This document shows, in pieces, positions 29,785-45,754 of a DNA stretch of 64,000 bases (its first letter is position 1; each line of letters starts with the position of its first letter). The position numbers and the translations under genes were made by a program. The DNA lies in NCBI RefSeq assembly GCF_004010055.1, contig NZ_RQVT01000018.1:1-64000 (forward strand), in the 5' to 3' direction. The notes under the pieces are model-generated. The model made no database searches. It was not told the origin of the DNA and saw only the letters and a program-made list of their open reading frames with translations. The stretch is from Psychroflexus aestuariivivens. GTDB lineage: Bacteria > Bacteroidota > Bacteroidia > Flavobacteriales > Flavobacteriaceae.

Positions 29785-32700
29785 ATGAAAAAACTTTATT
29801 TCACAATTATTTTCGCTTTTATCGGATTAACCATGCAAGCCCAAGACGATGCTTTTATTACGACTTGGGAAGTGACAACGGATGATCTCGAAATAATTAT
29901 ACCAACTATTGGAACTACGGTTGGATTTAATTACAATTTTACAGTTGATTACGGTGATGGGACTGTTGAGACAAATTTGACAAATGATCGTGCCCACACA
30001 TATAATTCTCCTGGAATTTATACAGTTACTATTACAGGTGATTTTCCAAGGTTTTTTTTTACTGAATTATCTGAGGACAAAGCTGCAATGCTAAAAACCA
30101 TTGAACAGTGGGGTGATTTTGAACTGGTTACAATGAAATATGCATTTAGAGGTTGTATAAATTTAGAAGTTAATGCAACAGATGCACCTGATTTAAGCCA
30201 AGTAGATGATATGAGTTTTATGTTTGAAGATTGCACTTCTTTAAATCAAGACATTAACCATTGGGATGTGTCCAATGTTACCAATATGAGTTATCTTTTT
30301 CGAGAAGCATCGAATTTTAACCAGCCCTTAAATAATTGGGATGTATCCAATGTCACTAATATGAGTGGTATGTTTTCAAATGCAGATAACTTCAACCAAT
30401 CTTTGAATGACTGGGATGTGTCTAATGTCACAAATATGATTAGTATGTTTTCAAACGCTAGTAACTTCAACCAGTCTTTGAATGATTGGGACGTATCTAG
30501 TGTATCTAACATGAGAAGAATGTTTCGTTCAGCAGAATCATTCAATCAGTCATTAGATAATTGGGATGTGTCAAATACTTTAGATATGGGCGGAATGTTT
30601 GCGTATGCATCATCATTCAATAAAACTTTAAATGATTGGGATGTGTCCAATGTCACCAATATGAGTGGTATGTTTTCAAATGCAGATAGCTTTAACCAAT
30701 CTTTAAATGACTGGGATGTCTCCAATGTCACCGATATGAATAGCATGTTTTTAGGTGCAGAAGATTACAACAAACCTGTTAACAACTGGGAGGTTGCTAT
30801 TGTTCAAGATATGGAACAAATGTTTATGAATACTGAGAGTTTCAACCAGCCATTAAATAATTGGAATGTTTCTAATGTCGAAACTATGAGAGGTATGTTT
30901 CAAAATACCATAAATTTCAATCAACCACTAAGTGACTGGGATGTTTCTAATGTTCAAGATATGGATGAAATGTTTGAAAATTCAGAGAGTTTTAATCAGC
31001 CTATTAATAATTGGAATGTTTCCAACGTTGAAACTATGACATATATGTTTAAAGATACCAAAAGTTTCGATCAACCTTTAAATAATTGGGATATTTCAAA
31101 TGTTGATTCTATTGCATGGATGTTTAAAAATACAAATATGTTTAATCAACCATTAGATAATTGGGACGTTTCTAGTGTTATATATATGAATGGAACATTT
31201 AGTGATGCTGAAGCATTTGATCAGGATTTGTCAAATTGGACTTTTAGCAACAATGTTGTTTTAAATGGTTTTTTAAGTTATTCTGTATTGTCAACTCAAA
31301 ATTATGACTTGCTTTTAAATGCATTGGATGATTCAGGTCTTGAAAATATAAGTATAGGGGTTAGGGAATTGTTTTATTGCAATAAGCTTGCGCATCAAAG
31401 CTTAGAGTCTAAAGGCTGGTATTTTTCTGGAGACTTTCATTTGGTAAATTGCAATTTTACAATTTCCGAAGATGCCTTTGCAACTATCTGGTATGTTGAA
31501 ACCGATGATTTAAACATAACAATACCAACTCAAGGTTCTGGTTATAGTTACGATATTGATTTTGGTGACGGCAATACTTTGACAAATGTTTCTGGAAATA
31601 TTTCTCATACTTATAATCAATCTGGGGCTTATGTTGTATCTATCTCTGGAGATTTTCCAAGCATAAATTTTGGACAATTCTCTGAGAATTCTAATGAACC
31701 AGAAAAATTACGGCGAATAATTCAATGGGGAAATAATGAGTGGTCTTCTATGCAAAATGCATTTAACGGGTGTGAAAATCTTATTATGACTGCGAATGAT
31801 GTTCCGAATCTTTCACAAGTCAGTGACTTTAGTCATATGTTTGAAGGTTGTGCATTGTTAGATGAAAACTTCAACGACTGGGACGTGTCCAATGCAACTG
31901 ATATGCAGTCGATGTTTAAAAATGCCGAAAAATTTAACCAAGCTTTAAACGATTGGGATGTTTCAAATGTAATTAACATGTCTTCAATGTTTGAAAATGC
32001 TGAGGACTTTAACCAACCATTGGATAATTGGGATGTTTCTAGTGCTATGGATGTGAGTTTGATGTTTAGAGAAGCTGAAAATTTTAATCAACCACTAAAT
32101 AATTGGGATGTTTCTAGTGTTACAGATATGAGTTTTATGTTTATGGAGACTGAAAATTTCAATCAACCCTTAACTAATTGGGATGTTTCTGGTGTTATTG
32201 ACATGAGTGAAATGTTTAATCAAGCTATTAGTTTTAATCAAGATATATCGACTTGGGAGTTTAATGACACTGTGCTTTTAGGTTTTTCTTCCCTTGATAA
32301 TGGATTTCTGTCCTTTTCAGGATTGGACGTTGACAATTATAATGCGTTATTAAATCAATTTGTACTTTTAAATTTAGAGAATAAAAACCTTGGTGCTTAT
32401 GAATTAAAATATTGTAACGTTATAGCTAGAGATTATCTTATTGATCAAAAAGGTTGGACTATTGAAGGTGATGAACTTTCAGAAGTTTGTGATTTTAATC
32501 AAATCGTTGGTAATGTTTATCATGATGAAAACAATGATGATTGCAGTTCGTCTATTATATCTCAAGGCGATTTTTTCATTAATGCAACTTCTAGTTCTGT
32601 TGATATTATAACGACTTCCATAGGCAGCGAAGCCTATGTTTTAAATCTCCCAGAAGGAGATTATGAGGTTGGACTTATCAATTTGCCGGATTATTTAGAG

Positions 32701-33834
32701 GCGACGCCAGAAATAACTAGCATATCATTGTCAGATGCTGGTAATGAAGTTCAACTCGATTTCTGTATATCTGGCAACCAAACTATTGAAGATTTAAATG
32801 TAGTTTTAGTTCCTATTGGAGAAGCACGACCTGGTTTTGAAGCGGATTATCAACTCGTGATTGAAAATGTGGGTACACAATCGGTAGATGATGTCACATT
32901 AACTTTAGATTTTGACGACAGCATGCAAACCTTTGTATCGGCGAACCCTAATCCAGATGTCGTTGGAAACAATCAATTGACATTTCAGATTCCAAGTTTA
33001 CAGATTTTTGAAACCATGACTTTCGACCTTACGATGCAGATATTTCAACCACCGATAGTTAATGGCGGTGATTTTATAAATTTAACAGCGAATATTACGC
33101 CGGACACTAATGATTTTACGCTTACTGACAATCAGTATGATTTAAGACAAACCGTTGTAAATTCTTTCGACCCTAACGATAAACAAGTTTTGGAAGGCGA
33201 GCAAGTCTTGATTGAAAATAGCGACAAATTTTTGCATTATTTGATTCGTTTTCAAAATACTGGAACTGCCAGCGCAATAAATGTCCGTATTGAAGATATT
33301 TTGCATGACAAACTGGATTGGAATACAATTAGACCAGTAAGTTCTAGCCATAATTACCGGATAGAAATCACTGATGGCAATCAAGTTGAATTTATTTTCG
33401 AGGAAATTTTCCTTCCTCATGAAGACGCAGATGAAGCTGGAAGTAACGGATTTGTAGCTTATAAAATCAAACCCAAATCTGATGTTGAAATTGGAGATAT
33501 GGTTTCGGGTAATGCCGCAATTTACTTCGATTATAATCCGCCGATTATCACCAACACAGTATCCACAACTTTTGTAGAAGAGTTGAGCATTGTAGATTAT
33601 GCGATGAATCAAATTCAAGTGTATCCAAATCCAACAAGTCGCCAATTGAATATCAATTCAACATACAATCTTCAAGTTGAAAACATGACATTGTTTGATA
33701 TCAAAGGCAAAACCATCAAACAAATAGAAGGTGGTCAAAGACAAATCAATATGCAGAATTTAGAAGCCGGCATATATTTCCTAAAAATTCAAACTGAACA
33801 CGGCGAATCAACTCAAAAAATTATCAAGCGATGA
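29785..33834 (+). CDS. Giant T9SS surface protein with two PKD-like/BspA (DUF285) modules
   Basis: A 1349-residue exported protein with a signal peptide ending MQAQ. It holds two copies of one module: a PKD-like strand domain (VDYGDGTVETN and DIDFGDGNTLTN) followed by BspA/DUF285 leucine-rich repeats of 25 residues built around NWDVSNVTNMSxMF. Array 1 has 14 Trp-led units, array 2 has six. A Cys-containing cap follows each array. After that come a DUF11-like beta domain (about 1010-1100), a DUF7619-like domain (SFDPNDKQVLEG to AIYFDYNPPI) and a type A T9SS sorting domain (VYPNPTSRQLNI, GIYFLKIQTE). Such proteins act in adhesion or prey/surface contact; the ligand is unknown. Monocistronic with its own terminator. 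Confidence 0.88.
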   Translation: MKKLYFTIIFAFIGLTMQAQDDAFITTWEVTTDDLEIIIPTIGTTVGFNYNFTVDYGDGTVETNLTNDRAHTYNSPGIYTVTITGDFPRFFFTELSEDKAAMLKTIEQWGDFELVTMKYAFRGCINLEVNATDAPDLSQVDDMSFMFEDCTSLNQDINHWDVSNVTNMSYLFREASNFNQPLNNWDVSNVTNMSGMFSNADNFNQSLNDWDVSNVTNMISMFSNASNFNQSLNDWDVSSVSNMRRMFRSAESFNQSLDNWDVSNTLDMGGMFAYASSFNKTLNDWDVSNVTNMSGMFSNADSFNQSLNDWDVSNVTDMNSMFLGAEDYNKPVNNWEVAIVQDMEQMFMNTESFNQPLNNWNVSNVETMRGMFQNTINFNQPLSDWDVSNVQDMDEMFENSESFNQPINNWNVSNVETMTYMFKDTKSFDQPLNNWDISNVDSIAWMFKNTNMFNQPLDNWDVSSVIYMNGTFSDAEAFDQDLSNWTFSNNVVLNGFLSYSVLSTQNYDLLLNALDDSGLENISIGVRELFYCNKLAHQSLESKGWYFSGDFHLVNCNFTISEDAFATIWYVETDDLNITIPTQGSGYSYDIDFGDGNTLTNVSGNISHTYNQSGAYVVSISGDFPSINFGQFSENSNEPEKLRRIIQWGNNEWSSMQNAFNGCENLIMTANDVPNLSQVSDFSHMFEGCALLDENFNDWDVSNATDMQSMFKNAEKFNQALNDWDVSNVINMSSMFENAEDFNQPLDNWDVSSAMDVSLMFREAENFNQPLNNWDVSSVTDMSFMFMETENFNQPLTNWDVSGVIDMSEMFNQAISFNQDISTWEFNDTVLLGFSSLDNGFLSFSGLDVDNYNALLNQFVLLNLENKNLGAYELKYCNVIARDYLIDQKGWTIEGDELSEVCDFNQIVGNVYHDENNDDCSSSIISQGDFFINATSSSVDIITTSIGSEAYVLNLPEGDYEVGLINLPDYLEATPEITSISLSDAGNEVQLDFCISGNQTIEDLNVVLVPIGEARPGFEADYQLVIENVGTQSVDDVTLTLDFDDSMQTFVSANPNPDVVGNNQLTFQIPSLQIFETMTFDLTMQIFQPPIVNGGDFINLTANITPDTNDFTLTDNQYDLRQTVVNSFDPNDKQVLEGEQVLIENSDKFLHYLIRFQNTGTASAINVRIEDILHDKLDWNTIRPVSSSHNYRIEITDGNQVEFIFEEIFLPHEDADEAGSNGFVAYKIKPKSDVEIGDMVSGNAAIYFDYNPPIITNTVSTTFVEELSIVDYAMNQIQVYPNPTSRQLNINSTYNLQVENMTLFDIKGKTIKQIEGGQRQINMQNLEAGIYFLKIQTEHGESTQKIIKR
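30262..31236 (+). repeat. BspA repeat array 1, 75-bp units
   Basis: TGG codons opening successive repeats fall at 30262 and every 75 bases thereafter to 31237, with no insertion or deletion: 13 complete units plus the start of a fourteenth. Units at 30337 and 30637 differ at only about nine of their first 100 bases and are offset by exactly four units. Confidence 0.85.
31879..32253 (+). repeat. BspA repeat array 2, 75-bp units
   Basis: TGG codons at 31879, 31954, 32029, 32104, 32179 and 32254 give five full units plus the start of a sixth in exact 75-base register. This array belongs to the second PKD-BspA module. Confidence 0.85.
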
Positions 33835-36453: not shown

Positions 36454-36461
36454 TACTTTTG
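36454..36461 (+). promoter_or_regulatory. Bacteroidetes -7 element that fixes the exchanger start
   Basis: TACTTTTG matches TAnnTTTG exactly. It overlaps the upstream TTG at 36459, so a transcript from here cannot use that codon and the ATG at 36480 must be the start. -33 box is weak. Confidence 0.45.
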
Positions 36462-36479
36462 GCACGTAAATTTTTGATT

Positions 36480-37436
36480 ATGCTTGTTTCAATTTTGCTG
36501 ATTTGTTTAGGCTTTGTTCTTCTTATCAAAGGTGCCGATTGGATGGTGCGTGGCGCATCTACTTTAGCCAAACAGTACAATATATCTGACCTAAGTATAG
36601 GTTTAACGATTGTAGCTTTTGGAACTTCCGCACCAGAATTGGTTGTCAATTTGGTCGCAGCTTCCCAAGACCAGCCAGATATTGTGTTTGGTAATATTAT
36701 CGGTAGTAATAATTTCAACTTATTTGTAATTCTAGGAATTGTAGCTATCATAGCTCCAATTGGAGTTAAATCGAGTACAGTTTGGAAAGAAATTCCTATT
36801 TCAGCTATTGCAGTTCTTGTCTTATTTTTATTGGCAAATTCATTTTTGTTTTCTAGTTCATCTGAAGTTTCGCGTTTGGATGCTTTGGTGCTTTTGGTCG
36901 TTTTTGCAGGATTTTTGTTTTATGTTTTTCAACAGATGAAGAATGACAAAAGCAATCTTGAAGTGCCGACAGAGCAAATGAGTCGATGGAAAATTACTGC
37001 TTATATTGTCGCTGGTTTAGCAGGCTTGATTTTTGGCGGACAACTGGTTGTCAATAATGCTACAGAAATTGCTACACATCTCGGCGTGAGTCAAAAAATC
37101 ATAGGATTAACTATTGTCGCTGTAGGAACATCTCTACCCGAATTGGTGACTTCTGTAGTTGCTGCTTTAAAGAAAAATAGCGACATCGCTATTGGTAACG
37201 TGGTCGGTTCTAATATTTTCAACTTCTTATTGGTTATTCCGTTAAGCGCATTGTTAAATCCATTGGCGTTCAACACCGAATTCAATACAGATCTATATTT
37301 GCTTTTTGGTGGAACTTTATTTTTATTCGTAGCCATGTTTACCGGTGGAAAGAAAAAATTAGATCGGTGGGAAGCTTTGGTATTATTAGGAAGTTTCATT
37401 GCATATACTTCATACTTAGTTTATCAAGCAATTTAG
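36480..37436 (+). CDS. Calcium/sodium antiporter (CaCA family)
   Basis: A 318-residue inner-membrane exchanger with about ten helices. The two inverted alpha repeats are clear: GTSAPELVVNLVAA with GNIIGSNNFN near residues 45-85, and GTSLPELVTSVVAA with GNVVGSNIFN near residues 215-255; the acidic residues in GTSxPEL bind the cations. It exports Ca2+ in exchange for Na+ or H+. A TTG at 36459 would give seven more residues but coincides with the probable -7 element. Monocistronic. Confidence 0.9.
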   Translation: MLVSILLICLGFVLLIKGADWMVRGASTLAKQYNISDLSIGLTIVAFGTSAPELVVNLVAASQDQPDIVFGNIIGSNNFNLFVILGIVAIIAPIGVKSSTVWKEIPISAIAVLVLFLLANSFLFSSSSEVSRLDALVLLVVFAGFLFYVFQQMKNDKSNLEVPTEQMSRWKITAYIVAGLAGLIFGGQLVVNNATEIATHLGVSQKIIGLTIVAVGTSLPELVTSVVAALKKNSDIAIGNVVGSNIFNFLLVIPLSALLNPLAFNTEFNTDLYLLFGGTLFLFVAMFTGGKKKLDRWEALVLLGSFIAYTSYLVYQAI

Positions 37437-41344: not shown

Positions 41345-42463
41345 ATGAAATATGTAATTTTCTCCCTTGTCATTGTCTTATTTGCCTGTCAAGATCCTAA
41401 AAATTCAACTTCAGAAAATACCGAAGAAACGTCCGAACCTCCAAAAAATATAGACTTTCCTGAATTTACCCAATCCGATGCGCAAGCTTTATTGAGTTTG
41501 CCGTTAGATTGCGTAACACAGGAATTCCCTAACAAACTTGGTCAAGTTTTGGGCAGTGAAGCCGATTTGGCAAGACCCAAAGATTTGCGACCTGCATTTT
41601 ACGGCTGTTTCGATTGGCATTCTTCAGTTCATGGGCATTGGGCTTTGGTGAAATTGCTTCAGAAATATCCGAATTTGCCAGAAGCTAAAGATGCCAAAAC
41701 TATACTGAAACAACATTTGTCTGAAGGAAATATTCAGCGTGAAATCGCTTTTTTCAAAACCGAACACAATACTACTTTTGAGCGCACCTATGGCTGGGCG
41801 TGGTTGTTTCAGTTAAGCACTGCACTCAAAAATTGGGAAGACGAAGCCGCGCCACAACTTTTAGAAAACCTAATGCCGTTGACTGAACTTTTGGAGGAAA
41901 AAATGAAAACATTCCTGCCAAAACTCGTTTATCCAATTCGAGTGGGCGAACATCCTAATACGGCATTCGCATTGAATCTAACTTACGATTATGCTTTGGC
42001 TTTCAATAAAACAGAACTTCTAAATAGTATAAAACAGCGCGCTAAAGATTTCTATTTGAAAGATGAAAATTGTCCGTTGAAATGGGAGCCAAGCGGCTAT
42101 GATTTTCTGTCGCCTTGTTTGGAAGAAGCAAGGTTGATGTCAAAAATTTTACCAAAACAAGAATTTGAAACATGGTTGAACCAATTTTTACCTGGAATCT
42201 ACAATTCTGATTTCAATATGGAATTGGCAGAAGTGGGTGACCGCGAAGATGGAAAACTGGTACATCTGGATGGTTTAAATTTTAGTCGTGCTTGGAATTT
42301 GTACCAACTTTCTGAAACATCTCCTAAACTGAAGCATTTGAAAAATCTCGGCGATGCGCATTTTGTTAAAGCTTACCCTAACTTGATTGGCGATTCTTAC
42401 GAAGGCGCGCATTGGTTAGGAACTTTCGCTTTGTATGCTTTGGATCAAAGAACAGAAATGTGA
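41345..42463 (+). CDS. DUF2891 family lipoprotein
   Basis: A 372-residue protein with signal peptide and lipobox LFAC. The body matches DUF2891, an alpha-helical family: FYGCFDWHSSVHGHWALVKLL, then the ERTYGWAWLFQL region, then the C-terminal PNLIGDSYEGAHWLGTFALY. The fold resembles (alpha/alpha)6 toroids of glycan-processing enzymes, but no activity is established. The stop codon overlaps the GTG of the downstream transporter gene (GTGA at 42460-42463), so the two are translationally coupled. This links an exported, probably glycan- or metabolite-handling protein to a transporter. Confidence 0.85.
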   Translation: MKYVIFSLVIVLFACQDPKNSTSENTEETSEPPKNIDFPEFTQSDAQALLSLPLDCVTQEFPNKLGQVLGSEADLARPKDLRPAFYGCFDWHSSVHGHWALVKLLQKYPNLPEAKDAKTILKQHLSEGNIQREIAFFKTEHNTTFERTYGWAWLFQLSTALKNWEDEAAPQLLENLMPLTELLEEKMKTFLPKLVYPIRVGEHPNTAFALNLTYDYALAFNKTELLNSIKQRAKDFYLKDENCPLKWEPSGYDFLSPCLEEARLMSKILPKQEFETWLNQFLPGIYNSDFNMELAEVGDREDGKLVHLDGLNFSRAWNLYQLSETSPKLKHLKNLGDAHFVKAYPNLIGDSYEGAHWLGTFALYALDQRTEM

Positions 42464-43677
42464 AATCGATTTTCAAAAACATAGGCCCAGGAACTTTGGT
42501 AGCCGCTGCTTTTATTGGACCGGGAACCATAACAATTTGCACTTTAGCAGGATTGAAATTTGGCTATAATTTACTCTGGGCGTTGCTATTTTCCATTTTG
42601 GCAACCATACTTTTGCAGGAAATGTCTGCTAGATTAGGCTTGGTTTTACGTCAGAATTTAGCCACGGCAATGCGCAATTATTTTCAAAATCCAGTCTTAA
42701 AATTTTCACTCATCACACTTGTCATTTTGGCTATTGTTTTGGGAAATTCTGCTTACGAAGCTGGAAATATAAGCGGCGCAGTTATGGGAATTTCTGTAAT
42801 TACTGGCGAAACCCGACTCAGTTTTAACGATTTCAGTTTCAACTATATGCCAGTCATTCTGGGTACAATTTGTTTTTTTATTTTGAATTTGAACACCTAC
42901 AAATACATTGAAAAAATTCTGATCAGTTTGGTGATTTTAATGAGCCTTTCCTTTGTAGGAACAGCTTTGATAACCAAACCAGATTTAGTCAATATAGTAA
43001 AAGGTTTGACTATTCCAGATTTCCCTAGAGAGTCACTGTGGACTATTTTAGCCATTATTGGAACGACCATTGTGCCGTACAATTTATTTCTACATTCCTC
43101 CATTGTTCAAGAAAAATGGAAAGATGCTGAAAGTTTGAAATTCGCACGTTGGGATACGATTATTGGCGTTGGTTTGGGCGGACTGGTGTCTGTGTGTGTG
43201 GTTATTACAGCTGCCACCATAGAACAAAATGAATTGAATTCTATTTTGGATTTGGCAAAAACCTTAGCGCCCATTTACGGCACTTATGCTAAATATTTAT
43301 TGGGATTTGGTTTTTTTGCTGCTGGAATCACCTCTACAATTACCGCTGCTTTGGCTGCTGCTTATGTTTTGAAAGCCTGTTTAGGCTGGACTTCAGACAA
43401 AAGCAAACTTTATTTTCCTTGGGTCTGGCGTTTAATTTTGCTTTTAGGGGTAATTTTTGCCTCCTTCAATCTGAATCCGATTCGCTTGATTGAATTGGCG
43501 CAAATCAGCAATGCAATTTTATTGCCATTCGTTGCCTTGTTTCTGTTTTTGATTTTGAGTAATACCAAAATTATGGGGCGATTCAGGAATTCTAAACTTC
43601 AGAATATTTTCGCTGTGATTATCATCGCTTTCTGTTTCTTTCTGGGATTGAAAAGTTTGTTTTTGGTCTTTCAGTAA
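42460..43677 (+). CDS. Nramp-like transporter lacking the canonical metal-binding residues
   Basis: A 405-residue inner-membrane protein with about eleven helices and the Nramp (SLC11) pattern. The frame is open earlier, but the GTG at 42460 gives the proper start (MKSIFKNIGPG) and overlaps the DUF2891 stop. Helix 1 reads GPGTLVAAAFIGPGT where Mn/Fe transporters have D-P-G-N: Asp is Gly20 and Asn is Thr23. Helix 6 reads IVPYNLFLHSS where they have M-P-H: Met is Val205 and His is Tyr207. All side-chain metal ligands are thus missing, so Mn2+/Fe2+ transport is unlikely. Substrate unknown. Confidence 0.85.
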   Translation: MKSIFKNIGPGTLVAAAFIGPGTITICTLAGLKFGYNLLWALLFSILATILLQEMSARLGLVLRQNLATAMRNYFQNPVLKFSLITLVILAIVLGNSAYEAGNISGAVMGISVITGETRLSFNDFSFNYMPVILGTICFFILNLNTYKYIEKILISLVILMSLSFVGTALITKPDLVNIVKGLTIPDFPRESLWTILAIIGTTIVPYNLFLHSSIVQEKWKDAESLKFARWDTIIGVGLGGLVSVCVVITAATIEQNELNSILDLAKTLAPIYGTYAKYLLGFGFFAAGITSTITAALAAAYVLKACLGWTSDKSKLYFPWVWRLILLLGVIFASFNLNPIRLIELAQISNAILLPFVALFLFLILSNTKIMGRFRNSKLQNIFAVIIIAFCFFLGLKSLFLVFQ

Positions 43678-44734: not shown

Positions 44735-45223
44735 CTAAGCATGTTGCTTGTCTTCTAGTTTCATAATCCAAGCATCTAACATCCAACTTGTTTTTTCTAA
44801 TTCTCTAATATAAGCACCAATCATATCGATAGTACCTTCATCTTCATTTTTATCTGCGGAGTCAACTACTTTACGCATTTGTTTTATAATTTCACCATGG
44901 TCACTCAAAAGGTTACTGACCATCTCACGATCTGAGACATCAGAACTTGACTCTTTTAAATTGGATTTATTTAAATAATCAGTAAAATTACTTTCTGGTT
45001 GGAATCTTAAAGTTAGTATGCGTTCAGCAATTTCATCAATCTTTACCTTAGCATCGTCATACATTTCTTCAAACTGAATATGTAAATCAAAGAAATTTTG
45101 TCCAATAATATTCCAATGGTAGTTTCTAAGTTTTTGATAATATAAATGGTAGTCAGCAAGCAAAACATTTAGCTCTTTGACTGTTGATTTTGTTTTGTCA
45201 TTATCTAGATTTAAATAACTCAT
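44735..45223 (-). CDS. dps: Dps family ferritin-like DNA-protection protein (copy 1)
   Basis: A 162-residue dodecameric ferritin-like protein that oxidises and stores iron and shields DNA under starvation or oxidative stress. The inter-subunit ferroxidase ligands are in place: His in LRNYHWNIIG and the acidic pair in FEEMYDDAKVKIDE. It is about five-sixths identical to the next gene (roughly 27 differences by eye), so a tandem duplication is plain. The two are separated by 42 bases. Its stop is next to the MscS gene start. Confidence 0.93.
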   Translation of the reverse strand: MSYLNLDNDKTKSTVKELNVLLADYHLYYQKLRNYHWNIIGQNFFDLHIQFEEMYDDAKVKIDEIAERILTLRFQPESNFTDYLNKSNLKESSSDVSDREMVSNLLSDHGEIIKQMRKVVDSADKNEDEGTIDMIGAYIRELEKTSWMLDAWIMKLEDKQHA

Positions 45224-45265
45224 TTTACTATTAATTTTAATAATTAAACAATATTTAATTCAAAT

Positions 45266-45754
45266 TTATGCGTTTCTTTTATCACCAATTTTCATAATCC
45301 AAGCATCTAGCATCCAGCTTGTTTTTTCAAGTTCTCTGATGTATGCGCCAATCAAATCTATGGTTCCTTCATCATTATTTTCATCTGCAACTTCAACAAC
45401 CTTACGCATTTGTTTTATAATTGTTCCGTGGTCGTCCAACAGATTTGAAACCATGTCACGGTCAGATACATCAGAACTAGATTCTTTCAGATTTGTGATT
45501 TTTAAATATTCGGAAAGATTGCTTTCTGGCTGGAATCTTAAAGTTAAAATACGTTCAGCAATTTCGTCAATTTTCAACTTTGCATCGTCATACATTTCTT
45601 CAAACTGTTCATGCAAATCAAAGAAATTCTGACCAACTATATTCCAGTGATAGTTTCTTAATTTTTGATAGTATAATTGATAATCTGCCAATAAAACATT
45701 CATTTCTTTGACAGTGTTTTTAGTTTTATTTTGATCTAAATTTAAATAATTCAT
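45266..45754 (-). CDS. dps: Dps family ferritin-like DNA-protection protein (copy 2)
   Basis: A 162-residue paralogue of the preceding Dps with the same ferroxidase pattern (LRNYHWNIVG, FEEMYDDAKLKIDE). Differences from copy 1 cluster in the first 25 residues, in the loop after residue 78 and at the C-terminus (GDKRNA versus EDKQHA), which are surface positions of the dodecamer and could alter mixed assembly or DNA contact. It follows the 99-residue unknown gene by 17 bases. Confidence 0.93.
   Translation of the reverse strand: MNYLNLDQNKTKNTVKEMNVLLADYQLYYQKLRNYHWNIVGQNFFDLHEQFEEMYDDAKLKIDEIAERILTLRFQPESNLSEYLKITNLKESSSDVSDRDMVSNLLDDHGTIIKQMRKVVEVADENNDEGTIDLIGAYIRELEKTSWMLDAWIMKIGDKRNA

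Follow-up and report, generated by a model that had tools for sequence, protein, structure and literature searches.

A Nramp-fold protein with replaced metal ligands, encoded with a DUF2891 lipoprotein and linked to 5-oxoprolinase genes, is a predicted 5-oxoproline importer

The DUF2891-Nramp gene pair of Psychroflexus aestuariivivens

The stretch of Psychroflexus aestuariivivens DNA analyzed here (contig NZ_RQVT01000018.1, positions 1 to 64,000; the whole 64,000 nucleotides are referred to as the window) carries two overlapping genes, which encode a DUF2891 lipoprotein and a protein of the Nramp family; the pair is predicted to form the transport side of an operon, DUF2891-Nramp-pxpA-pxpB-pxpC, that salvages 5-oxoproline (pyroglutamate). 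An earlier reading of the window from its letters alone (the sequence-only reading) had placed the pair and its GTGA overlap correctly, as judged by the open reading frames (ORFs), the junction sequence and the profile matches (Table 1). The Nramp ORF starts with GTG, and the junction reads AAATGTGAAATC; in 38 of 54 related loci with both genes the DUF2891 stop codon overlaps a possible Nramp start, while in 10 it lies 0–30 bases before the start and in 6 the start is farther away or missing. A simple search upstream of position 41,345 with a Bacteroidota-type promoter consensus gave nothing.

Table 1. Features of the gene pair (positions in the window; TM, transmembrane helix)
Feature	Position	Strand	Evidence
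DUF2891 lipoprotein, first gene of the pair; predicted (alpha/alpha) barrel	41345-42463	+	PF11199 E 1.2e-128; AlphaFold2 model
Leader peptide to lipobox Cys15	41345-41389	+	MKYVIFSLVIVLFAC; Cys15 invariant in 45 aligned proteins
GTGA overlap of DUF2891 stop and Nramp start	42460-42463	+	Sequence
Nramp-fold transporter of the GPGT/VPY clade; predicted 5-oxoproline importer	42460-43677	+	PF01566 E 1e-85; tree; model
TM1 GPGT (residues 20-23), in place of DPGN	42517-42528	+	Alignments
TM3 Gly102-Asn103; Asn103 at the canonical Glu site (DraNramp E134)	42763-42768	+	Alignments
TM6 VPYN (residues 205-208), in place of MPH	43072-43083	+	Alignments
TM10 Gln348 (canonical residue retained) to Asn351 (canonical Leu)	43501-43512	+	Alignment

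Replaced metal ligands in the Nramp-fold protein

Alignment to BfraNramp (10ky) and DraNramp bears out that DPGN has become GPGT and MPH has become VPY; no displaced copy of either motif is found, and ligands that are shifted but intact are excluded by the alignments. Where the canonical Nramp motif reads DPGN and A/CxxMPH, the window protein reads GPGT and TTVVPY. The claim that every side-chain metal ligand is gone was slightly overstated, as most are replaced but Gln348 of TM10 is retained; the TM3 glutamate (DraNramp E134), replaced by Asn103, is to be added to the losses first listed. In a 2026 preprint this glutamate is described as the single pathway residue common to many Nramp-related proteins (PMC12873925).

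The replacements were followed through 182 clade sequences, a set assembled by two fetching routes that holds some genomes twice and leaves out L274_6670 and L275_4350 (wrong frame, GC-rich loci). Gly20 is present in all 180 sequences ungapped at that site, and position 23 is Thr or Ser in 180 of 180; Asn103 and Tyr207 are found in 182 of 182 and Val205 in 181, and Asn351 is constant. The sites of Gly20, Asn103, Tyr207 and Asn351 are occupied in seven canonical Nramps by the TM1 Asp, TM3 Glu, TM6 His and a TM10 Leu. The acidic TM3 residue Glu100 is conserved, yet it is Gln in 10 of the 182 sequences, so no acidic residue of the pocket is strictly retained. The replaced residues are fixed marks of the clade rather than signs of decay.

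Phylogenetic position and fold

In a tree of 80 proteins (IQ-TREE, LG+C20+F+G4 by posterior mean site frequency; unrooted and without outgroup) the window protein belongs to a group of 57 rows with support 100/99, and the seven canonical Nramps, the only ones included, form a separate 100/100 branch that excludes it. L274_6670, L275_4350 and L068_8358 (start cut short) were omitted, and the overlong ORF L126_5071 was exchanged for the annotated gene. EleNRMT stands alone on a long branch, and five PxpT-type proteins lie outside the clade in their own 100/100 group, with a branch length of 4.09; these are plasmid-borne proteins that stood in for PxpT and YcsG in both the tree and the residue comparison. 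The suggestion of an Nramp-related clade outside canonical SLC11 is thereby upheld; membership of the PxpT clade is ruled out by the separate branches and by GPGT and VPY as against GPGF and GGY.

The window protein is 48–61% identical to 43 relatives, its reading frame is full-length, and it scores over the cut-off of the NCBIfam Nramp model; it matches the PF01566 profile and its model has a LeuT-type fold. Superposed on DraNramp (6c3i), the model gives Z 47.5 and a root-mean-square deviation (rmsd) of 2.4 over 374 residues, and BfraNramp follows with Z 43.6; beyond the fold, the TM1-turn Pro and Gly and the TM10 Gln are shared with canonical SLC11/Nramp proteins such as MntH, whereas their Asp, Asn, Met, TM3 Glu and TM6 His are all replaced in the clade. 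Matches extend to the amino-acid and carboxylate carriers AdiC, ApcT and LAX3. EleNRMT, a magnesium transporter of the NRMT type, is alike in fold (Z 45.3), in the TM10 Gln and Asn and in its position outside the canonical Nramps; however, it has the TM1 Asp and the TM3 Glu, neither of which occurs in the clade. The NRMT motif, given in PMC8806188 as DxxG in TM1 and TxxA/T in TM6, is absent from the window protein, which has GxxT and TxxV.

PxpT of Corynebacterium glutamicum and YcsG of Bacillus subtilis share with the clade the PF01566 fold and neighboring pxp genes, although in the window genome these genes lie apart. In all five PxpT-type proteins compared, the TM1 Gly-Pro-Gly and residues Gly20, Asn103, Tyr207 and Asn351 are common to the clade; one of the five comes from an Acinetobacter baumannii plasmid, and all likewise lack the metal ligands. 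They differ in their GPGF and GGY motifs and their long branch, and a YcsG model (9a52) is 19% identical to the window model by structural alignment; a sequence search of the PDB with a PxpT-type query gave no match, though the fold search lists 9a52. The literature already describes a PF01566 outgroup of proteins without assigned roles (PMC9606685, PMC4072509). Further lineages without metal ligands occur in the same family: a second PF01566 protein of the window genome (L002, C1:63580-64614), of another deep lineage, has GVSH for DPGN, and other Flavobacteriaceae proteins carry GTGS, GPGS or GAGD in TM1 (L111, L112, L113, L117, L118).

Linkage to 5-oxoprolinase genes

The clade was surveyed in 120 Flavobacteriaceae genomes, one per genus, and occurs in 77 of them (two as fragments, G062 and G065); PxpA occurs in 85, both in 76, the Nramp protein alone in one, PxpA alone in 9 and neither in 34. 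In 72 of the 76 genomes with both, pxpA follows the Nramp gene on the same strand at a distance of no more than 4 kb (median 25 bases); at one of the four exceptions (G079) a contig end cuts the Nramp gene, the remainder of which is followed by pxpA on the next contig. The commonest order is DUF2891-Nramp-pxpA-pxpB-pxpC: among 50 Flavobacteriaceae DUF2891 loci (within 16 kb), 36 have the Nramp gene and pxpA-pxpB-pxpC in that order on one strand (in two of these the DUF2891 and Nramp genes are over 3 kb apart), and 3 have pxpABC without the Nramp gene. By comparison, none of pxpA, pxpB and pxpC was found near other PF01566 lineages of the family at the 10 loci taken as a negative control.

A scan with the clade alignment, at one genome per species, gave at least 598 pattern matches and at least 594 relatives; among the nearest 80, which were kept, pxpA lies within 4 kb downstream in 72, of which 50 also have DUF2891 upstream and 22 do not. 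Another 5 (Psychroflexus L135, L136 and L137; L185, L197) have DUF2891 alone, and the last 3 lack both genes within that distance, although pxpA stands 4.07 kb away in one of them. Across 296 Bacteroidota genomes the clade occurs in 36, of which 35 have PxpA and 30 have it adjacent; PxpA scores over the cut-off in 57 of the 296 overall (58 with a weak match in G225). Phages were considered as a possible source of pxpA, with six records.

The operon is split in the window genome, as its enzyme half has moved elsewhere: pxpC, pxpB and pxpA (PF02626, PF02682, PF03746) stand together on another contig, C4. In Psychroflexus salis (L138) the entire operon is intact, and in P. curvus (G172) PxpA is encoded about 260 kb off on the same contig. 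The 9 kb fetched downstream in P. aurantiacus and P. sediminis (L136, L137) contain no pxpA, in a search that covered this stretch and not the rest of either genome.

Exchange of enzymes and of transporters

Two clade members on haloarchaeal plasmids, 42–43% identical to the window protein, are directly followed by hyuA-hyuB (two of three haloarchaeal matches were opened, and the HyuA and HyuB families were confirmed for one); the Haladaptatus locus also carries an aspartate/glutamate racemase-family gene. A Bacteroidota genome without PxpA (L261, G398) has a clade member that adjoins hyuB-hyuA on the opposite strand, and at locus L272 the order is DUF2891-hyuA-hyuB-Nramp, the Nramp protein there being of a deeper lineage. 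Genes for 2-oxoacid:ferredoxin oxidoreductase adjoin deeper-lineage Nramp genes at L268 (by Pfam) and at L273 and L276 (by eye), a possible link between the substrate and the metabolism of 2-oxoglutarate or glutamate.

DUF2891 is also found with a different transporter. In Campylobacter jejuni, cj0552-4 encode DUF969, DUF979 and DUF2891 proteins, and deletion abolished use of 5-oxoproline; the mutant lacks all three genes, so that the share of DUF2891 itself is not separable (PMC12795558). The proposed 5-oxoproline transporter DUF969/DUF979 thus resembles the Nramp-fold protein in being encoded with DUF2891 and 5-oxoproline metabolism, but belongs to other Pfam families, and DUF979 was found in none of the 120 Flavobacteriaceae or 296 Bacteroidota genomes. 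The idea that DUF969/DUF979 serves as transporter in those Flavobacteriaceae with PxpA and without the clade finds no support in that count for the 120. Of five plasmid DUF2891 matches opened, three have the order DUF969-DUF979-DUF2891 (Klebsiella, Burkholderia, Gemmatirosa), one (Roseomonas) has a P1-family peptidase gene before it, and one (Agarilytica) has neither; of six DUF979 matches opened, DUF2891 follows in one, pcp and DUF2891 stand beside pxpABC in one, pcp is present in three (one with pxpBCA) and none of these genes in the last. DUF2891 is unlikely to be a simple replacement for pcp beside DUF969/DUF979, as a Streptomyces plasmid cluster has both. P1-family (S58) peptidase genes adjoin DUF2891 in Roseomonas and in one Flavobacteriaceae genome, and another lies a few kb from it in the Streptomyces plasmid (L130, L076, L287).

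The DUF2891 protein

The DUF2891 protein matches the PF11199 profile, and its AlphaFold2 model (mean pLDDT 84.1) has the fold of C. jejuni Cj0554 (8ieu), with Z 40 and an rmsd of 2.3 over 328 residues. The two proteins are homologous along the domain (8ieu, 8iev; phmmer E 3.5e-62); they differ in that the window protein is a lipoprotein, while the Cj0554 match starts at residue 17 and leaves little room for a leader. The assignment as a lipoprotein holds, Cys15 being invariant in 45 aligned proteins (the lipobox was read by eye). A likeness to glycan-processing enzymes had been suggested, and it stands at the level of fold only: the next matches are cellobiose 2-epimerase, at Z 16.5, and an unsaturated glucuronyl hydrolase, at Z 16.4, values little above those of other helical proteins such as complement C3b (Z 14.8).

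The pairing of DUF2891 with the Nramp-fold protein is conserved in part. DUF2891 scores over its cut-off in 58 of the 120 Flavobacteriaceae genomes, a count that leaves out G008 (E 6e-4) and other matches below the cut-off, against 59 in the search output; 45 of these share the clade, and in 40 DUF2891 is directly or nearly directly upstream. Conversely, in 32 of the 77 clade genomes no DUF2891 protein reaches the family cut-off, and the clade Nramp protein is missing from 13 of the 58 DUF2891 genomes. A lipobox is present in DUF2891 proteins of Flavobacteriaceae, Agarilytica and L272, and no leader is seen by eye in five from other phyla (Klebsiella, Niveispirillum, Streptomyces, Roseomonas, Burkholderia). 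This loose co-occurrence, together with the pairing of leaderless forms with DUF969/DUF979 elsewhere, disfavors DUF2891 as a dedicated, fixed binding partner of the transporter. Across 59 DUF2891 sequences from different contexts 32 residues are invariant, including His92, His203, His307, His339, His356, Arg147, Arg199, Arg315, Glu146 and Glu248, as expected of an enzyme; a protein at work on either side of the membrane would also more readily be an enzyme than a binding protein. DUF2891 is probably an enzyme that prepares the transported compound, and the earlier suggestion of a substrate released by it is possible.

Predicted function and alternatives

5-Oxoproline is formed by cyclization of glutamine or glutamate, and its ATP-dependent ring opening to glutamate by PxpABC, for which it is the known substrate, is established. 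Since the clade sits beside 5-oxoprolinase genes, 5-oxoproline is predicted to be the main substrate of the Nramp-fold protein, an assignment that is considered likely; the non-metal substrate first proposed agrees with this gene context, and the naming of 5-oxoproline is a prediction. Most exported proteins of Bacteroidota carry N-terminal pyroglutamate (PMC10653852). These caps could be a source of the compound. DUF2891 might make, free or isomerize the transported compound, a more weakly indicated step; the Nramp-fold protein would carry 5-oxoproline across the inner membrane, with the TM1 Gly-Pro-Gly turn, Asn103, Tyr207 and Asn351 presumably lining what is the metal site in canonical Nramps, and PxpABC would then open the ring to glutamate, spending ATP. 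There is a precedent in PxpT, an Nramp-family protein that C. glutamicum requires to grow on 5-oxoproline and whose deletion was complemented (PMC13274462).

Several observations weigh against this assignment. The ring compound is not pinned down exactly, since hydantoins, too, can be substrates of HyuAB proteins; the deeper lineage has hyuAB nearby in 6 of 16 loci and pxpA in none of the 16, and some of its genes adjoin those of a 2-oxoacid:ferredoxin oxidoreductase. PxpA occurs without the clade in 9 Flavobacteriaceae genera and in 22 of 296 Bacteroidota genomes; of the 58 Flavobacteriaceae genomes with DUF2891, 10 lack PxpA, and DUF2891 stands by itself at 11 of 50 loci; G065, which has a clade fragment in a genome 88% complete, lacks PxpA; and the Fisher values for co-occurrence treat genera as independent. 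In addition, YcsG/MntG (PMC10448178) and MumT (PMC5050338) have been reported as manganese importers.

It is unlikely that another small organic solute (glutamate, 2-oxoglutarate, a hydantoin or pyroglutamyl compounds) is carried, with the 5-oxoprolinase handling it further. The hyuAB and oxidoreductase neighbors of the deeper lineage, the fold matches to AdiC, ApcT and LAX3 and the racemase-family gene of Haladaptatus are in keeping with such a cargo; against it, the linkage in Flavobacteriaceae is to pxpABC, whose substrate is 5-oxoproline, and PxpT-type relatives are tied to that compound by growth phenotypes.

That the protein is still a divalent metal (manganese) importer, its site rebuilt and its expression tied to the metal needs of PxpABC or of nitrogen metabolism, is rather improbable. 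The Nramp fold and the retained Gln348 would suit it, and so would the manganese accumulation or manganese phenotypes reported for YcsG/MntG and MumT, which are encoded beside pxpA-type genes; the PxpT-type proteins compared lack the ligands in the same way. The Asp, Asn, Met, TM3 Glu and TM6 His are replaced, however, in at least 180 of 182 sequences; with Gln for Glu100 in 10 of them the pocket keeps no strict acidic residue, and the 5-oxoprolinase genes to which the clade is tightly linked are of two unrelated types. Possible polar effects in earlier work on YcsG and 5-oxoproline are noted in PMC10448178; in C. glutamicum, however, the deletion of pxpT could be complemented. That the gene is a decayed Nramp pseudogene, preserved by accident beside the lipoprotein gene, is hardly credible, as the separation of the pair from pxpABC in the window genome is countered by the full-length frame, the 48–61% identity to 43 relatives, a motif fixed in 182 sequences and the conserved translational overlap.

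The 5-oxoproline assignment can be extended into a fuller proposal, put forward tentatively and doubtful as a whole: the clade would be a second PF01566 lineage of pyroglutamate transporters, apart from PxpT and shared by Bacteroidota and haloarchaea, DUF2891, its lipoprotein partner in Bacteroidota, would be a new enzyme active beyond the inner membrane, where it frees or racemizes pyroglutamate, and the operon would recover the pyroglutamate caps that most exported proteins of this phylum bear under the Q-rule. The lineage lacks the DPGN Asp and has a Gly-Pro-Gly turn in TM1; such a turn resembles that of amino-acid carriers of the APC superfamily.

Relation to earlier work

PxpT has already given rise to the idea that a protein of the Nramp family can transport 5-oxoproline. 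Among the papers listed for 5-oxoproline and Nramp, or for pxpABC and Bacteroidota, none deals with the clade, though the founding 5-oxoprolinase work (Niehaus 2017) may already show part of the clustering; Nramp and DUF2891 are mentioned together in one paper, in unrelated table rows, and DUF2891 by itself in three. The separate clade, its pairing with DUF2891 and the swap between two unrelated kinds of oxoprolinase are not described in that literature.

If pyroglutamate is indeed the cargo, hundreds of genomes are mislabeled, given at least 594 relatives in a single scan; haloarchaeal members are annotated as divalent metal transporters. The clade also bears on the dispute whether PxpT-type proteins are 5-oxoproline transporters or manganese importers, since a second lineage with the same neighbors and the same replaced residues is an independent test. 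DUF2891, so far of unknown function, would gain a pathway, and dedicated recovery of pyroglutamate would make physiological sense in Bacteroidota with their pyroglutamate-capped exported proteins (PMC10653852).

Other features of the window and of related loci

In two Psychroflexus genomes (L136, L137; 6877-7833) a Na/Ca exchanger gene lies directly 5' of DUF2891; the window has such a gene at 36459-37436, about 3.9 kb upstream of DUF2891 with other genes between. Positions 29785-33834 encode a 1349-residue protein with many NVTNMSxMF-type repeats and a C-terminal secretion-type tail. Downstream of the pair, at 44735-45754, two tandem Dps-like ferritin genes, whose products are identical at 135 of 162 residues, adjoin a mechanosensitive channel gene.

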